A stretch of DNA of 64,000 bases. Origin: Spirochaetaceae bacterium (GTDB lineage: Bacteria; Spirochaetota; Spirochaetia; WTKD01). Every line of letters begins with the position of its first letter. Within the stretch, counting starts at the first letter, position 1. Shown here piece by piece: positions 5,559 to 43,647 of this stretch. The stretch covers positions 1 to 64,000 of the forward strand of contig WTKD01000001.1 in the NCBI GenBank assembly GCA_011524535.1. The letters are read 5' to 3'. The translations under genes and the position numbers were made by a program. The notes under the pieces are model-generated. The model searched no databases. It saw only the letters and a list, made by a program, of their open reading frames with translations, and was not told the DNA's origin.

Positions 5559-5629
5559 TTCCCGGTGGTGTAATGGTAGCACAACAGGTTCTGGTTCTGT
5601 TTGTGGGGGTTCGAGTCCTCCCTGGGAAG
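5559..5629 (+). tRNA. tRNA-Gln (CTG)
   Basis: Folds as a cloverleaf by eye: acceptor TTCCCGG/CTGGGAA, anticodon stem ACAGG/TCTGT with the loop TTCTGGT giving anticodon CTG, and T-arm GGGGG-TTCGAGT-CCTCC. The discriminator base is G5629 and CCA is not encoded. It starts one base after the apt stop codon. Confidence 0.9.
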
Positions 5630-5632
5630 GAT

Positions 5633-5704
5633 GGCCCGTTCGTCTAGTGGTTAGGACACTGGGTTCTCAGTCCAGTAACAGGGGTTCGACTCCCCTACGG
5701 GCTA
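5633..5704 (+). tRNA. tRNA-Glu (CTC)
   Basis: Acceptor GGCCCGT pairs with ACGGGCT (the first pair is G-T). Anticodon stem CTGGG/TCCAG holds the loop TTCTCAG, giving anticodon CTC. T-arm is AGGGG-TTCGACT-CCCCT and the discriminator is A5704. It follows tRNA-Gln by 3 bases, and the pair is probably processed from one precursor. Confidence 0.9.
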
Positions 5705-34339: not shown

Positions 34340-35277
34340 TTAGACTCAAATACTTCTTGCTTCTTTTTCTGGTATTTGGAATTGTTTCCTGCGGGGGGAC
34401 AGTGATTTTATTCGATCCGGATATGGCTATTGCCTATCCTGGTAATCTGCGTCGAGATACGCGAAAAATATTGTCAGAGATAAATTCTGAGGTAGCTGAT
34501 TTCCATTATCTCACACATAGTATTGTCGTTTTGGGTGAATCTGAGTCTTTCTTTTATCCGCTACAAATCCTGCGTTTATTTCATGCAGATAATATTGTTT
34601 ATTTTTCATCTTCTTACAGAGAACTTGCAACTCAATTTAAAGCATTTCAACCTACGCAGGAACAACAGCACGTACATGTTCAATCAGTACAAATGTATGA
34701 ACAAACCGGAGGAATTCCAAACCCACAGATGGTGGCAACGCAAGATATAACAGACGGATTTCCGGAAGACCCCGATGCAACTCCTGGACAACAGGCTCTT
34801 CTTCTCGATCGGCGTGCAGCAATATCTTCAATGATAGATTACATCTTAAAGGATATTGAAAGTAGAGAAGAATTATCATCTCCGTATATTGCCTTATTCC
34901 GGATAGAAGAAGGCTTATCCGCGGATGAGTTCGCTATTATGAATGATGAATTGCTATCTAAAGGATCACTGATAATCCGGGATTACGTGTATCGTGACAA
35001 GGAGACCATAGATGTGAGGTTGAATCGGGATGTGAGTTCACACCGAGATACACCATATCTTTTGTTTTTTGTGGGCCCATATGTTAGAGATTTGGGAGTC
35101 AATATCAATGACCTCGAAGGAAAAATATTTATCGAAAGTTACTTCATTACCAATGCTGCCGCCTTAGGTGCGGACATGAGTATTGGATTTACGTTACGGG
35201 ATATAATAAGTACAGCGGTTAACAGAGAAATCGATCTAGACGTTGGTTATGTTCCTGCGATTTTTTACCGATACTAA
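34336..35277 (+). CDS. lipoprotein of unknown function upstream of flaA
   Basis: Signal MIRLKYFLLLFLVFGIV and lipobox ending VSCGG predict a lipoprotein of 313 residues. The mature part has mixed alpha/beta character with a Gln-rich, probably flexible stretch near residues 95-150. No domain is recognised. It overlaps the membrane protein gene by 4 bp and lies 43 bp before the flaA-type gene, so it may belong to the filament sheath or its export. Confidence 0.68.
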   Translation: MIRLKYFLLLFLVFGIVSCGGTVILFDPDMAIAYPGNLRRDTRKILSEINSEVADFHYLTHSIVVLGESESFFYPLQILRLFHADNIVYFSSSYRELATQFKAFQPTQEQQHVHVQSVQMYEQTGGIPNPQMVATQDITDGFPEDPDATPGQQALLLDRRAAISSMIDYILKDIESREELSSPYIALFRIEEGLSADEFAIMNDELLSKGSLIIRDYVYRDKETIDVRLNRDVSSHRDTPYLLFFVGPYVRDLGVNINDLEGKIFIESYFITNAAALGADMSIGFTLRDIISTAVNREIDLDVGYVPAIFYRY

Positions 35278-35320
35278 GCTCGAGACGTTAGGTCGAGTAT
35301 ACTCGGTACGAGGAGCAGGT

Positions 35321-36058
35321 ATGAACCGAATAATTATAATTTTGATATTTTTAGTTTCAATTGGAACGATTTTTTCTGAAGACGTGCTACGATACAGGTC
35401 TCTCACGTTGGATACTTTCGATAACCCCAATCAGTCAATAGGTTGGGAAGTACGAGGAAGTAAAAACATCGCAGAGGATTATCCAAGAGTTTCATTCATA
35501 AACACCTGGCCAGCAGCATTGCACGGATACAATAGCGATCGTGAACGCGATTTACGCGCATTAGGGGTCGAAGCTGCGTTTACACAACGTGGTTATAATT
35601 ATCTTGAAATTTTCCCCACTGAACGATTGGCTGATGGTAGCTTTATAAATCGGTCGATAGAATTGCCCGGAGATACTATAGGCTTGTCAGTATGGGCGTG
35701 GGGATCAAATTATGATTTTTCGTTAGAGGTCCACATTAGGGATTATCGTGGCGTAGTTCATCAAGTTCCTTTCGGGAAAATTAACTATTACGGGTGGAGG
35801 CAACTGACGGCGACCATTCCGACAGCGGTTCCACGCAGAAGCCCTTATCAGTTTAATTTCGCTGATTTGTACGTAGACAAAATTGTATTGTGGACAGAGC
35901 CACAGGAGCCAGTATCTGGTTTCTTTTTATATCTTGATGATCTACAAGTTCTTTCGCGCACAAACACGGAAGTTGTAGACGGTGGAGAATTGTTCATTCC
36001 AGAGATACGAGACAGTCGTTGGGAAGAATCTAGTAACGGTACAGAAGAAACCAATTAA
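35321..36058 (+). CDS. flaA: flagellar filament outer layer protein, FlaA-like
   Basis: ATG 35321 is preceded by AGGAG; the frame is open from 35243 but that part lacks a signal. The 245-residue product has a signal peptide (RIIIILIFLVSIGTIFSEDV) and FlaA-type features: TLDTFDNP, SIGWEVRGSKN, GLSVWAWGSNYDFSLEVHIR, GKINYYGWRQLTATIP and a C-terminal FFLYLDDLQVLS. FlaA forms the sheath around the FlaB core in the periplasm. A second, more canonical FlaA follows 11 bp downstream. Confidence 0.88.
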   Translation: MNRIIIILIFLVSIGTIFSEDVLRYRSLTLDTFDNPNQSIGWEVRGSKNIAEDYPRVSFINTWPAALHGYNSDRERDLRALGVEAAFTQRGYNYLEIFPTERLADGSFINRSIELPGDTIGLSVWAWGSNYDFSLEVHIRDYRGVVHQVPFGKINYYGWRQLTATIPTAVPRRSPYQFNFADLYVDKIVLWTEPQEPVSGFFLYLDDLQVLSRTNTEVVDGGELFIPEIRDSRWEESSNGTEETN

Positions 36059-36069
36059 GGGAGAAAAAA

Positions 36070-36780
36070 ATGAAAATACTAATTTCTAGTTTATTGATTA
36101 GCTGCATCGCATTTGCGAGCTTTGGTCAGGTGGACATAGATCCTGCCTTGGTTGACCAAGGAAATTTCGCTCCAAATCTTCAGGAAATATCTATCGACAA
36201 ATTCGAAGATGCTGGATTTTGGCGAACGTTGATTTCTATTGATGATGGTGTTATTCAGCATCGTTCGTTGCGAGGTACACCTGATGCAAAGGATCCTCTT
36301 ATTCTTGAGACTGCTCTTGCTCCTCAGAGTTCTGCTGATGATTATGTACTCGGTGTTAGAACCGACTTTTTCAGAAGGACATATTCTACGCTCTCATTGG
36401 TACCTGCTCGTCCTATTCCTATTCCAGGTATTGCGAGTAGTTTATCCATATGGGTTGCTGGTAGAAACATTCCATACGAATTAAAAATTTTACTGCGAGA
36501 TTCTATCGGTCAAATAAGCGTTTTGAGTTTTGGAAAACTTCAATTTTTGGGTTGGAAGAAACTTGAAACCATCATACCACCAGACATACAGGATGTTCGT
36601 TACACAGGTCTCGGGAGAGGATTGGATTCAAATACCGGATTAGAAGTGATAGGACTCCAGATTGAATCTTCTTTGATGGAAACCTATGGTAGATACTATG
36701 TCTATTTTGATGATCTTCGTGCTGTGACAGATCTTACGGTCTTGTCCCGTGATCCAGATGACATGATTGATAATTGGTAA
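36070..36780 (+). CDS. flaA: flagellar filament outer layer protein FlaA
   Basis: Sheath protein of the periplasmic flagellum. The 236 residues include a signal peptide (LISSLLISCIAFASFGQ), ISIDKFEDAGFWRTLISIDD, SLSIWVAGRNIPYELKILLR, GKLQFLGWKKLETIIP and YYVYFDDLRAVTDL, and a short acidic tail ending DDMIDNW. GGGAG lies upstream of the ATG. The pattern of Trp/Gly blocks is shared with the preceding gene, so they are paralogues in one operon. A stem-loop at 36820-36851 lies downstream. Confidence 0.92.
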   Translation: MKILISSLLISCIAFASFGQVDIDPALVDQGNFAPNLQEISIDKFEDAGFWRTLISIDDGVIQHRSLRGTPDAKDPLILETALAPQSSADDYVLGVRTDFFRRTYSTLSLVPARPIPIPGIASSLSIWVAGRNIPYELKILLRDSIGQISVLSFGKLQFLGWKKLETIIPPDIQDVRYTGLGRGLDSNTGLEVIGLQIESSLMETYGRYYVYFDDLRAVTDLTVLSRDPDDMIDNW

Positions 36781-38196: not shown

Positions 38197-39330
38197 GTGA
38201 GTGAAAATGCGGCAGAAAACAATAAAACATATACAGTAGGTGGTATCCAACAGGTCGGTATAGGTGTAGAGGTATTATCCTCTGCCATACAGTGGTATGG
38301 ACGCTTTTTTGGGTTCAATGCACTTATGTTCCACGACTTTAATGTGGCGGAATTAATGGGCCCATATACGGGAGGAGAAGTACATTTGAGAGATGCAGCT
38401 CTTCTTCTAAATCTTGCAGGCGGAGGGGGAGTAGAGGTCTGGCAATACACAAGTCGAAGACCTATATATCCTATTGAGACACCTATCCTAGGTGATCTTG
38501 GCATTTTTTCTGTCGTTTTACGTACCCCCCAAGTTCTACCAAGTTACGATTCTTATTTTGCTTCTGACATATACCTGCATAGTGAACCAAAGGAAGACCC
38601 TTTAGGATTGCAGAACTTTTTTATATCCGATATGTATGGGAATGTGTTCCTCATTAGAGAAGATTCTTCCTGGTTTCTTCAGCCAAAATATTTCCCTCCC
38701 ACAGAAAACTCAACCGCCCGCACGAAAAATGGGGGAATAAGTGGAGTCATTATCGGTGTTTCCGATATAGATGCTTCGCTTGTGGTGTATCGAGATCTTC
38801 TTGGCTATACAGATGTTGGATATGATCTCACGGGGAGTTTTGAAGATTTTGAGAACCTGCCCGGAGGTCGCAATGAATTCAGACGTGTCCTATTGCGAAA
38901 AAAAGCAGAAGGTCCCTTTAAGCATTTGTTGTGTGATTCTACCATCGAGCTCATTCAAGTGCTCGATAGAGTCCCAGAGAAGATATTTGGTGGCAGACTT
39001 TGGGGAGATATTGGATTTATCCATTTGTGTTTTGATGTATGTAACATGGATCTTCTTCGAGAACGTTCGAAGGAGCTTGGTTATTCTTTTACGGTAGACA
39101 GCAAAGAAACCTTTGCAATGAATGAAGCTTCGGGTAGATTTGCCTATATTGAGGACAATGATGGCACGCTCCTTGAGTTTGTTGAGACATTAAAAATTCC
39201 CATCACCAAGCGTTTTCATTACGATATAAAGCCCAAACATCAAGAAGAAGGGCTCTCCAGATTGTTTTTGAGAATGCTACAATTCCGCTCGCTCCAATGG
39301 AAAAACAACCGGTTGAAGTTGGATTTTTAG
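38197..39330 (+). CDS. VOC superfamily protein (two glyoxalase/dioxygenase-like domains)
   Basis: The 377-residue protein has two vicinal-oxygen-chelate repeats: residues ~13-155 (IQQVGIGVEVLSSAIQWYGR, GIFSVVLRTPQV, PLGLQNFFISDMYGNVF) and ~180-330 (GISGVIIGVSDIDASLVVYR, GDIGFIHLCFDVCN, GRFAYIEDNDGTLLEFVE). The second domain keeps the late Glu of VOC metal sites. Substrate unknown. It starts with GTG, has no ribosome binding site, and a TACACT -10-like box ends 7 nt before the start. It converges on the alpha-oxoamine synthase gene with a small hairpin between them. Confidence 0.82.
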   Translation: MSENAAENNKTYTVGGIQQVGIGVEVLSSAIQWYGRFFGFNALMFHDFNVAELMGPYTGGEVHLRDAALLLNLAGGGGVEVWQYTSRRPIYPIETPILGDLGIFSVVLRTPQVLPSYDSYFASDIYLHSEPKEDPLGLQNFFISDMYGNVFLIREDSSWFLQPKYFPPTENSTARTKNGGISGVIIGVSDIDASLVVYRDLLGYTDVGYDLTGSFEDFENLPGGRNEFRRVLLRKKAEGPFKHLLCDSTIELIQVLDRVPEKIFGGRLWGDIGFIHLCFDVCNMDLLRERSKELGYSFTVDSKETFAMNEASGRFAYIEDNDGTLLEFVETLKIPITKRFHYDIKPKHQEEGLSRLFLRMLQFRSLQWKNNRLKLDF

Positions 39331-39366: not shown

Positions 39367-40638
39367 TTAGTCGATTATAGGTCCATACAATTGCTCTAGT
39401 TTTGTACGGTCGTCTTTTTCCAGATTTAAGTCTAGTTTTAGAGTATCGCGCATATGTGTAAATTTTCTTACAGTTTCTTCCACATCTTCAGAGGTATGCT
39501 CAGTAGTGGGTATCAGTCTGAACATACATAGACCCAGTGGAATCACCGGATACGCGACAACGGAAACAAAAATTCCTTCGTCTCGCAAGAATCTCATACA
39601 GTTTTGAGCCAATTCAACAAGATCTCTAGAATGTAGGGGGAGAAATACGCTACATATAGGAGATTCTCCTGGTCCGACAAAAAAACCGGCATTTCGCAAC
39701 CCCTTTTTTAACGTATTACTGGTCTTCCAAACTTTTTCACGTAAATCGCCACCTTCAATGATGAGTTCGAGCATCTTTCTCATGGTGGCTACATAGATCA
39801 TGGGGAGGCTCTTTGCAAATACTTGGGTTCTAGCATTGTATCCTATCCACTCGATCACATTCTTGAGAGAAGCTGCGAATCCGCCAATGCCCGCAAATGA
39901 TTTTGCAAATGTTCCAAAATATATGTCTACGTCTTCCTGTACGCCCAAATGATCTGCTGTGCCACGTCCTTGAGCTCCCATAACACCACACCCGTGCGCG
40001 TCATCCACAAATAGTCTTGCGTTGTATTGCTTCTTTAATGCTACTATGTCGCCTAGAGGGGCGAGATCCCCGGTCATGCCATATACTCCCTCGGTGACGA
40101 TGAGGGTCCCCTGCGATCCATCTTGCGGGATACGTTTTAGTATTGATTCCAAACTATTCATATTGTTGTGCCTAAAGATACGGATCGTTGCCTGTGAAAG
40201 GAATGCCCCGTCGATTATGCACGAATGGGCCAATTTATCCATGACGATGATGTCTTGTTTTGTTGCAATGGCAGCAATAACTCCCAACACGCCCATGTAT
40301 CCATAATTAAAAAGATAGGCTGATTCTTTTCTTGAAAATTCTGCGAGGGCTCTTTCAAAAGCAAGATGGTGCTCGGTGGTGCCACTCATCATACGCGAGC
40401 CCATCGGATTACTGACCCCATATTCCTGAACCGCCTGGTTCGCAACCTCCTGTACCTCGGGGTTGTTTGCAAGCCCAAGGTAGTTGTTTGCGGACCACAT
40501 AATACATGTATTGTTATTGAATACGGTAGTTCGCCCGGTGTTTGGGGAAAGTGTAGGTCTGGTAAAAAATCTATCCCCCTGTGCTCTAAGATCACCAAAA
40601 TTCCCTTCTGTTGTATTGCATTTTGAAAAAATGTCCAT
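39367..40638 (-). CDS. alpha-oxoamine synthase (serine palmitoyltransferase / cysteate acyltransferase-like)
   Basis: PLP-dependent enzyme condensing an amino acid with an acyl thioester. Seen: ANNYLGLANNPEV, GSRMMSGTTEHHLAFERALA, VDDAHGCGVMGAQG with the PLP-binding Asp-His, and GTFAKSFAGIGGF with the Schiff-base Lys. The GTFAKSF form resembles serine palmitoyltransferases more than the TLGKA form of KBL and BioF, as I recall these families. Length is 423. It lies 62 bp downstream of the cysteate-synthase-like gene on the same strand, which suggests cysteate as substrate and 3-ketocapnine as product (inference). Glycine C-acetyltransferase activity remains a fallback. Confidence 0.82.
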   Translation of the reverse strand: MDIFSKCNTTEGNFGDLRAQGDRFFTRPTLSPNTGRTTVFNNNTCIMWSANNYLGLANNPEVQEVANQAVQEYGVSNPMGSRMMSGTTEHHLAFERALAEFSRKESAYLFNYGYMGVLGVIAAIATKQDIIVMDKLAHSCIIDGAFLSQATIRIFRHNNMNSLESILKRIPQDGSQGTLIVTEGVYGMTGDLAPLGDIVALKKQYNARLFVDDAHGCGVMGAQGRGTADHLGVQEDVDIYFGTFAKSFAGIGGFAASLKNVIEWIGYNARTQVFAKSLPMIYVATMRKMLELIIEGGDLREKVWKTSNTLKKGLRNAGFFVGPGESPICSVFLPLHSRDLVELAQNCMRFLRDEGIFVSVVAYPVIPLGLCMFRLIPTTEHTSEDVEETVRKFTHMRDTLKLDLNLEKDDRTKLEQLYGPIID

Positions 40639-40700
40639 TATATCTCCGATTGTTGCACTTTTCTGTGTTAGGAATTTATTTTCATTCTAACGATTCTTGT

Positions 40701-41984
40701 CTACTCTGATAACATAGTTTCTAATATATGTCGTTCTATTTTTTCTACAGGCAGGACCCAATGGGGAGGAATTTCATGTATATCGTACGCATCGTGTGCA
40801 ATTCTGTATCCTGCTCCGGTAATGTTTACCATGCACGTGTCTGATGCTTGTATTGTTTTTTGCGATATAGCCTGCTTTAGACTTGCAAATGCCACCGCGG
40901 CTGCAGGATCTATATCATAGCCTTCTGTTTGCTCGAAGAGTTTTTTTGCTGTTACTGCCTCTGTATTGTTTATTGCGTACATGTGCCCATTGGTTTTTTG
41001 TAATACATCGAATACCCCACCTGTGATACTGTAGACGGGTTTGCGATTTGCTAAAACAGGAGCTAGGATTTCAGCGCTATGTTTTCGTTCAAGTGAATCA
41101 GAATATTGAATGAGATTTCGTTTGCGAGTGGCCCATGAATCAACCAGCAATGTGAACGGGGAATTTTGGGAAAGATGCAATGTGCAGCGTTTATCCGAGT
41201 CTTGCATATCACGGGCTATTCTTCTTTCTACAGCCTCAAACGCGGCTATCGCACCCGTGCCGCTACCAACGGCTTGGAAATAATGCTGTGGTATTGCTCC
41301 AATGTATGAGATTGCTTCGTGCATCGTGGTCCCCATACCATCACGCCTTGCTATATTCTTTGCTCCGCCTTCTGGGAAGAACCCTTCTAAAGAACAAATA
41401 ACAGTTGCTGCTCGTATAGCATCAAAGTAGTCACCCCCTTGGATATGGAGAACACGCGTAAACTGGGTGTTCTTGTGTGGGCTCCAGAGGGCAGAAGAAT
41501 TCCGCTCTGGAATAACAATAATAGTCGGTTGTTTATAGAGTTCAGAGGCGTAGGCAAACGCACGAGCGGTATTGCCAGCCGAAGCAACAACTAGTGTTTG
41601 TGTTTTCATACTGTCTGGCATGCGAGCGAGTACAGACATGGCTTCACATTCTTTAAAACTTCCTGTGATATAAGCACTACTCCTATCGGGGACATACCCA
41701 CTAACCGTTATAAAGAGGTTGGATAGCCCTAGGGCATCGCCCAATTCGATAGCGTGATAGGTAGCAGAACGAGAGCTTTTGGCCAGGGGTCTGTTTGTAG
41801 GAAGAAATTCTTCATATCTGCTGAAATCTTCTCGGTTGAGATGTATTTTTGATTTTTTCGGGTAGACAGTGCGTATGAATGCCTCGTCTGAGTGGGTTGG
41901 ATCAAGCAATAAAAATCCTTCACCGGTGAAAACATCCTTGAATGTTCTACCAGTCGTGAGACTTTCGATACGGTAGTTATGCAT
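40701..41984 (-). CDS. threonine synthase family PLP enzyme, probable cysteate synthase
   Basis: A fold-type II PLP enzyme of 427 residues. The middle part has SATYHAIELGDALGLSNLFI, then SGYVPDRSSAYITGSFKECE with the PLP Lys, VVASAGNTARAFAY and IIVIPERNSSALW. Classic threonine synthase has SFKDRG after the Lys; here it is SFKECEA, which matches what I remember of archaeal cysteate synthase (SFKELEA), an enzyme making cysteate from phosphoserine and sulfite. The phosphate-binding SAGNT loop is kept. It is followed by an alpha-oxoamine synthase gene. A -10-like TACTAT lies 5 nt before the ATG with no ribosome binding site. Threonine synthase is the alternative. Confidence 0.72.
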   Translation of the reverse strand: MHNYRIESLTTGRTFKDVFTGEGFLLLDPTHSDEAFIRTVYPKKSKIHLNREDFSRYEEFLPTNRPLAKSSRSATYHAIELGDALGLSNLFITVSGYVPDRSSAYITGSFKECEAMSVLARMPDSMKTQTLVVASAGNTARAFAYASELYKQPTIIVIPERNSSALWSPHKNTQFTRVLHIQGGDYFDAIRAATVICSLEGFFPEGGAKNIARRDGMGTTMHEAISYIGAIPQHYFQAVGSGTGAIAAFEAVERRIARDMQDSDKRCTLHLSQNSPFTLLVDSWATRKRNLIQYSDSLERKHSAEILAPVLANRKPVYSITGGVFDVLQKTNGHMYAINNTEAVTAKKLFEQTEGYDIDPAAAVAFASLKQAISQKTIQASDTCMVNITGAGYRIAHDAYDIHEIPPHWVLPVEKIERHILETMLSE

Positions 41985-42030: not shown

Positions 42031-42060
42031 TTGACAATATACAAGATGAGGGGCTACAAT
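42031..42060 (+). promoter_or_regulatory. sigma-70 promoter of rny
   Basis: Perfect TTGACA (42031-42036), 18-bp spacer, TACAAT (42055-42060). Transcription would start near 42067, leaving a ~40-nt leader with GGAGG before ATG 42109. It diverges from the cysteate-synthase-like gene. Confidence 0.72.
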
Positions 42061-42108
42061 TTTATTGTCTGGTGTATCGGTCGGACAAAACTAAACGGAG
42101 GAAGTAGA

Positions 42109-43647
42109 ATGGACTTTTTTATAATTGTCTATGTTTCTCTTCCTCTCCTGGGAATCTTGGCCGGTTGGTTCTTTCGTTTGTTGTACGCAAGATTCCAACT
42201 GACATCTGAAGAACAGAAGACTGAACGATTAAAACTTGATGCGGTTAAAGAAGTTGAGGCACAAAAGAAGGAGATAACACTTAGAACTCGAGAAGAACTT
42301 CAAAAGGAACGCATAGAGCAAGAGAGGGAACTGCGCGAGGTCCGTGCAGATTTAAAAAGACAGGAAAAAAGGCTCTCTGGTCGTGAAGACTCGTGCGAAG
42401 CTCTAGCACAGTCTCTTCAAAGAAAACAATCAGTACTTGATTCTCGTGAGAGAAAGTTGATTCAGGGAACAAAAAAACTTGAGCAGGACATAGAATCCCT
42501 GCGTAAGAGACTAGAACAGCTCGCTGGATATACACGTGAAGAAGCGAAAACCATGCTTGTGGACTCACTTGAACACGAAGCAAGGCGAGATGCCCAATCT
42601 TTGATAAATAAGATAGAACAAGACGCTAATCAGGAAGCAGAAAAAAAAGCTCGACGAATTTTGGTTAGTACCATGCAAAGACTTGCGCCGGAGGTATCGA
42701 ATGAAACCACTACGGTTTCGGTTCAGTTGCCAAATCAGGAAATGAAAGGTAGAATCATTGGTCGTGAAGGTAGGAATATCCGGGCATTGGAAACATTGAC
42801 TGGAGTTGATGTAATAATAGACGATGCAGCTTCGGAACTTGTTTCACTTTCTTGTTTTGATTCGGTGCGCAGAGAAATAGCTCGGCGCTCCTTGGAATAT
42901 TTGGTGACGGATGGGCGAATTCACCCGGCACGTATCGAAGATATAGTAGAAAAACAACAATCTGATATTGAGAACTATATTCTGGAGTTGGGAGAAAAGA
43001 CTTTTTTTGATCTTTCTCTACAACCGATTGCCCGAGAGGGAATGTCTGCGGTGGGGCGTTTACATTTTCGAACAAGCTATGGACAGAATATGCTCACGCA
43101 TTCTATCGATGTTGCTCGTCTGGCTGCTATGTTCGCATCTGAGCTAAACGCAGATGTCAACACAGCGAAACGTGGAGGCTTGTTGCATGATGTTGGCAAA
43201 GCGCTTACCTCAGAAAACGGAGCGAGCCACGTAGAGCTTGGTGTAGAACTTGCTAAACGTCTTAAAGAAACAGACGAGGTCATAAACTGTATCGCCGCTC
43301 ATCACGGTGATGTTCCCTACACATGTGTGGAAGCTGTTCTTGTCCAGATTGCTGACACAATTTCTGCTTCGAGACCTGGCGCCAGAAAAGAATCTCTTGA
43401 AAAATACATAAAGCGATTACGGGGTCTTGAATCGATTGCTCTTGAATTCAAAGGAGTTCGACAGGCCTATGCTATCCAGGCTGGTCGCGAACTTCGTGTT
43501 ATCCTTGATCATGATATCGTAGCCGACGGTGATTCGAGGCATTTGGCACGTGATATCACTCGAAGAATAGAAACAGAGCTAAGTTATTCTGGCAGAATAC
43601 GAATAACACTTATTCGAGAAACTCGAATAGTAGATTATGCCCGATAA
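42109..43647 (+). CDS. rny: ribonuclease Y
   Basis: Membrane-anchored endoribonuclease that starts mRNA decay. ATG 42109 is chosen for its GGAGGA site; upstream in-frame sequence is promoter. The 512 residues show an N-terminal membrane helix (FFIIVYVSLPLLGILAGWFF), a long coiled coil (~25-180), a KH domain with GRIIGREGRNIRALE and TGVDVIIDD, and an HD domain with HSIDVARLAAM and LLHDVGKAL. Length and order are standard. The stop overlaps the ymdB-like start by 11 bp, a conserved gene pair. Confidence 0.96.
   Translation: MDFFIIVYVSLPLLGILAGWFFRLLYARFQLTSEEQKTERLKLDAVKEVEAQKKEITLRTREELQKERIEQERELREVRADLKRQEKRLSGREDSCEALAQSLQRKQSVLDSRERKLIQGTKKLEQDIESLRKRLEQLAGYTREEAKTMLVDSLEHEARRDAQSLINKIEQDANQEAEKKARRILVSTMQRLAPEVSNETTTVSVQLPNQEMKGRIIGREGRNIRALETLTGVDVIIDDAASELVSLSCFDSVRREIARRSLEYLVTDGRIHPARIEDIVEKQQSDIENYILELGEKTFFDLSLQPIAREGMSAVGRLHFRTSYGQNMLTHSIDVARLAAMFASELNADVNTAKRGGLLHDVGKALTSENGASHVELGVELAKRLKETDEVINCIAAHHGDVPYTCVEAVLVQIADTISASRPGARKESLEKYIKRLRGLESIALEFKGVRQAYAIQAGRELRVILDHDIVADGDSRHLARDITRRIETELSYSGRIRITLIRETRIVDYAR

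Follow-up and report, generated by a model that had tools for sequence, protein, structure and literature searches.

Sulfonolipids are sulfur-bearing lipids of the outer membrane, known mainly from Bacteroidota and linked to gliding. They signal to hosts and choanoflagellates, and serve as gut markers attributed to Bacteroidota. In the capnine pathway of this phylum, the enzymes CapA, CapB and CapC correspond to Cys, CFAT and KCR. Homologues of Cys, cfat and kcr have been listed in 13 phyla at E 1e-20, a loose threshold which would admit related enzymes (PMC11211663). No report of spirochaete sulfonolipids was found in the open-access literature. The passages on capnine found in PMC11129491, which mentions both topics, concern Bacteroidota strains. 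In a lipidomic study that included Treponema denticola, ceramide sulfonates were named only in P. gingivalis, P. brevis and C. albicans (PMC11052126).

The window analysed here is a stretch of 64,000 nucleotides from a Spirochaetaceae bacterium of the class Spirochaetia (GCA_011524535.1, contig WTKD01000001.1, positions 1 to 64,000). It lies on contig C9 of a genome of 1.42 Mb, with 96% completeness and 0.1% contamination, which was analysed by targeted searches and in a few stretches. Two neighbouring genes of this window very probably code for the enzymes of the first two committed steps in the synthesis of sulfonolipids. Family membership, conserved adjacency and the presence of supply genes are established from the sequences themselves. 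A spirochaete origin is indicated by two tandem genes of the FlaA family (flagellar filament outer layer) at 35243-36780, together with the grouping of the window's acyltransferase with those of Spirochaetota. Two tandem tRNA genes are found at 5559-5704.

The gene pair in the window

Both genes are located on the minus strand. The cysteate synthase gene (40701-41984, 427 aa, ATG start) is followed, after an intergenic gap of 62 bp (40639-40700), by the gene of a CFAT/SulA/CapB-type acyltransferase (39367-40638, 423 aa, ATG start). An earlier note, made from the sequence alone, had described these two reading frames, and their coordinates, shared strand and spacing were all borne out. So were the SFKECEA motif, which occupies residues 109-115 of the first protein, and the GTFAKSF loop around Lys246 of the second. 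Convergent with the CFAT gene lies a plus-strand gene (38197-39330, 377 aa) for a tandem VOC protein of glyoxalase fold, a predicted metalloenzyme. On the other flank, rny (42031-43647, plus strand) encodes RNase Y and stands outside the pathway; it is also present near the cluster in spirochaete loci L064-L068, L182, L183, L185, L187, L188 and L190. A TetR-family regulator adjoins the cluster in L044, L066, L067, L080-L084 and L185-L190, and none was seen beside the copy in the window. The same strand, the 62-bp gap and the conserved adjacency suggest that the two genes are probably expressed as one transcript.

The 40701-41984 protein scored 395.2 bits against TIGR03844 (E = 2.7e-118), above the curated equivalog cut-off of 324.9, and its best solved relative was the cysteate synthase PDB 9k3c (299 bits). 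In a tree built without archaeal sequences, with 9k3c as the characterised reference, the protein, 9k3c and 25 spirochaete sequences formed one clade (support 98/98), set off by a long branch (1.52) and with largely unresolved branching inside it. The genome's own ThrC, the ThrC of E. coli and ThrC-like spirochaete rows were all excluded from this clade. The alignment revealed FKE-E, EGGAKN-ARRDGM and Lys111 as common to its members, as well as 23 invariant positions that are missing from every ThrC-type row. Lys111, located within SFKECEA (codon 41654-41652), is the predicted PLP lysine. The earlier note's assignment as cysteate synthase is thus supported by the model, the structural match and the clade, and the enzyme is expected to form L-cysteate from O-phospho-L-serine and sulfite.

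Among solved structures, the 39367-40638 protein matched 28eh, a CFAT of CapB type (358 bits, E 5e-106), and 7u7h, which is SulA (344 bits). In a 47-row tree, it was taken in by a CFAT clade (100/99) that excludes SPT, KBL and BioF, the long branch of E. coli BioF being used in the outgroup only. Within this clade it was placed among the CFATs of Spirochaetota (98/89). Lys246 (codon 39903-39901) is the predicted PLP lysine, and Lys276 (codon 39813-39811) aligns with SulA Lys281, a position occupied by Lys in 41 out of 41 CFAT rows, by Asn in KBL and by Thr in BioF. In SulA, this lysine sets the active site apart from that of SPT, and its loss leads to a thousandfold drop in activity (PMC9304779). 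The KBL models gave 315.8 and 262 bits, below their cut-offs of 460 and 493, and the curated cut-offs for BioF were likewise not reached. The tree, the structure scores and the SulA-specific lysine support the assignment as a cysteate C-fatty acyltransferase of CFAT/SulA/CapB type, which is how the earlier note had read the gene. That note had taken a position within KBL, next to threonine dehydrogenase, as the result that would speak against its reading. The tree places the protein outside KBL, and its neighbours are the cysteate synthase and VOC genes, with no threonine dehydrogenase. A second alpha-oxoamine synthase, found beside the VOC gene in spirochaete locus L064, was rejected as a second condensing enzyme because it is an ordinary KBL (654 bits against a cut-off of 460).

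Distribution in the class and competing readings

The contigs of relatives were scanned with a CFAT alignment; a single cysteate synthase sequence used as query gave no match. CFAT was detected in 57 of 395 genomes of the class, across 17 families, with a bimodal distribution of scores: all 57 reached at least 430 bits, and the match that came next scored 338. Cysteate synthase was detected in 59 of these 395 genomes and both genes in 49. Wherever both were located on one contig they were neighbours (43 of 43 genomes), the matched ends being spaced by 72 to 355 bp. The Fisher p values of about 1e-43 ignore relatedness; sounder evidence comes from the adjacency and from the number of families involved. 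Outside the phylum, the CFAT genes of Bacillus salacetis (L078:1353-2627), a Gram-positive isolate and named strain, and of an alphaproteobacterial MAG (L076:7878-9293) pair up beside the spirochaete CFATs in the tree.

The 40701-41984 protein shares the PALP superfamily with threonine synthases and weakly matches thrC models, so that its gene could be taken for that of a divergent threonine synthase serving threonine. The thrC model, however, gave only 44 bits against the 395 of TIGR03844, the best solved threonine synthase only 40, and the protein belongs to a separate clade. The source genome contains only three PALP genes, namely trpB, the cysteate synthase gene and a canonical thrC that comes after an aspartokinase gene, so that the 40701-41984 gene is dispensable for threonine. 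A place inside true threonine synthases, together with the absence of another thrC, had been named by the earlier note as a reason to abandon its reading. The second, canonical gene, the scores and the separate clade leave a role in threonine synthesis with a negligible probability. A serine palmitoyltransferase acting in ordinary sphingolipid synthesis, with an unrelated gene as neighbour, is a less remote but still very improbable identity for the acyltransferase. SPT is the nearest other family (best structure match 247 bits) and its models do score, although below their cut-offs (317.5 against 500, 306.9 against 640 and 255.4 against 670 bits). The window protein falls, nevertheless, within the CFAT clade, from which SPT is set apart by a branch of 1.51; it carries Lys276 where SPT has Ala, and its gene is fixed beside that of cysteate synthase. 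Trees, cut-offs and residues led to the rejection of the SPT, KBL and ThrC identities.

A further reading accepts the cysteate and places the lipid in doubt: cysteate might be a precursor of coenzyme M, sulfolactate or taurine, with a small sulfonated amino ketone, and not a membrane lipid, as the product of the acyltransferase. The cysteate synthase of Methanosarcina serves coenzyme M, and Methanosarcina acetivorans was the only control genome to match TIGR03844. The length of the acyl chain is not readable from the sequence, and ten genomes of the class have a cysteate synthase with no CFAT detected. On the other hand, the two genes are neighbours wherever their arrangement is visible, and the closest characterised relative of the window CFAT takes long-chain acyl-ACP (PMC9304779). 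A non-lipid product is therefore improbable, if slightly less so than the SPT identity, and sulfonolipid synthesis is the reading retained in the following sections.

Sulfite supply, later steps and the VOC neighbour

For the substrates, the product and the role in the membrane, we infer the following scheme. SerC would supply O-phosphoserine and CysD-CysN-CysH would supply sulfite, both of which would be joined by cysteate synthase to form L-cysteate. CFAT would then form 3-ketocapnine, with loss of CO2, from cysteate and the thioester of a fatty acid, probably an acyl-ACP. An SDR reductase, for which C5:46629-47426 is the best candidate, could convert 3-ketocapnine into capnine, and an N-acyltransferase may turn capnine into an N-acyl sulfonolipid. 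The condensation of cysteate with an acyl thioester had been proposed in the earlier note; at the gene level it is supported by models, structures, trees, the lysine, adjacency and the linkage with sulfite genes.

In seven loci (L064, L065, L068, L182, L183, L184 and L191), the gene order is cysD-cysN-cysteate synthase-CFAT-cysH, and partial linkage to the cluster was observed in L048 (cysD-cysN) and L052 (cysH). Such a cluster would lead from sulfate through sulfite and cysteate to 3-ketocapnine, and the linked cysHDN genes would explain the source of sulfite. In the source genome, serC is present and a cysH-cysD-cysN run is located on contig C10, apart from the contig of the cluster. The search for a sulfite reductase (NIR_SIR) gave no match in this genome and matched 11 of 14 control genomes; among the 57 CFAT genomes, NIR_SIR is lacking in 45 and present in 12. 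A cysK-type PALP gene is also absent from the source genome, since its three PALP genes have the other identities given above. With neither sulfite reductase nor cysK, cysteate is the only sulfite sink found, which suggests that sulfate reduction stops at sulfite in this organism and feeds cysteate synthesis. The two missing genes could also reflect a gap in the assembly, as the genome is 96% complete.

No ketoreductase gene adjoins the pair, and the earlier note had expected one elsewhere. Nine SDR matches are found in the source genome, and C5:46629-47426 is closest to the CFAT- and VOC-linked SDRs of L077, L079 and L134. A candidate is thus at hand, assigned by similarity only: it is 34-36% identical to the CFAT-linked SDRs, has no pathway neighbours, and SDRs are common in general. 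In a Candidatus Aminicenantes locus (L070:8001-13910), CFAT, an Rce1-like protein, epimerase-type and SDR genes and a GNAT form one run. Zobellia, Arenibacter and Maribacter also have relatives of this GNAT beside CFAT, and a GNAT was seen near CFAT in flavobacterial loci including L095, L100 and L102. As a guess, the CFAT-linked GNAT could be a candidate N-acyltransferase. A query with three such sequences gave no relative in the source genome, so the GNAT was dropped for this organism, in which no N-acyltransferase candidate was found.

The 38197-39330 protein consists of two fused VOC modules, and no family model fits it well. Its relatives adjoin CFAT in most spirochaete loci, as well as in loci of Bacteroidota, Rhodothermota and Chlorobiota. 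A strong match was present in 49 genomes of the class, 45 of which also have CFAT, and the two genes are at most 3 kb apart in 35 of the 38 genomes where they share a contig. The predicted structure (pLDDT 89) matched glyoxalase-family proteins and GLOD4 in Foldseek. Gln18, Glu79 and Glu326 do not vary across 18 homologues, and His or Gln occupies position 275; these four positions presumably correspond to the metal ligands Gln33, Glu99, His126 and Glu172 of human glyoxalase I. In profile alignments with PDB entries, Gln18 and Glu326 fall on a VOC His and Glu, the others not being firmly placed.

These genes also occur together in operons of other genomes. In a Bacteroidota MAG (L077, 5610-9227) and a Rhodothermota MAG (L079, 2510-5908), a fatty acyl-AMP ligase-ACP-CFAT fusion, whose domains were scanned in L079, is followed by VOC and SDR genes, a likely one-operon route to capnine. 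The order in L134 is SDR, VOC, CFAT. The tandem VOC protein probably belongs to the same pathway as CFAT. It might be speculated that it catalyses an enolising metalloenzyme step on 3-ketocapnine, e.g., an epimerisation. No published description of a CFAT-linked tandem VOC protein was found in the open-access literature, and the protein represents a new candidate enzyme.

Comparison with known pathways

At the gene level, the evidence supports reading cysteate synthase and CFAT as a unit that is conserved in spirochaetes and is coupled both to the production of sulfite and to a new family of VOC proteins. The same pair occurs in many uncultured spirochaetes, next to sulfite-making genes and the glyoxalase-like protein. 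If spirochaetes make sulfonolipids, the attribution of the gut markers to Bacteroidota needs to be revisited. The same would hold for how the pathway evolved and for the chemistry of the cell envelope in this phylum, whose membranes and motility are unusual. The balance tips modestly towards spirochaetes having their own version of the pathway, in which a dedicated cluster leads from sulfate to 3-ketocapnine for lipid and not for cysteine, together with an undescribed tandem VOC metalloenzyme that belongs to the pathway generally, in several phyla.

Compared with 9k3c and TIGR03844, the latter found in Methanosarcina, the window's cysteate synthase passes the curated cut-off and has the same motifs, but is placed on a long branch (1.52). 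Its CFAT shares the family, the PLP lysine and the SulA-specific lysine with 28eh and with SulA of Alistipes finegoldii, a cysteate acyl-ACP transferase (7u7h). It falls, however, outside the Bacteroidota/Chlorobiota clade (100/100), to whose members it is 43-48% identical, and stands beside CFATs from Spirochaetota, Aminicenantes and a small number of other groups. The VOC neighbour resembles glyoxalase I, GLOD4 and two-module VOC proteins in its predicted fold, with the differences that the identity is only 12-15% and that its gene is CFAT-linked.

The first two reactions predicted for the window pair are the same as those of the Bacteroidota capnine pathway. The verified 3-ketocapnine reductases of Bacteroidota are unlinked to CFAT (PMC11211663), as is the SDR candidate of the source genome. 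The two systems differ in gene arrangement: in spirochaetes, the cysteate synthase and CFAT genes are adjacent, frequently accompanied by cysD-cysN-cysH, the tandem VOC gene and a TetR regulator, whereas no such adjacency appeared in the Bacteroidota loci examined. In some flavobacteria (L095, L100, L113 and others), the PALP gene upstream of CFAT is, judged by eye, CysK/CBS-like and not ThrC-like, and perhaps encodes a different kind of cysteate synthase.
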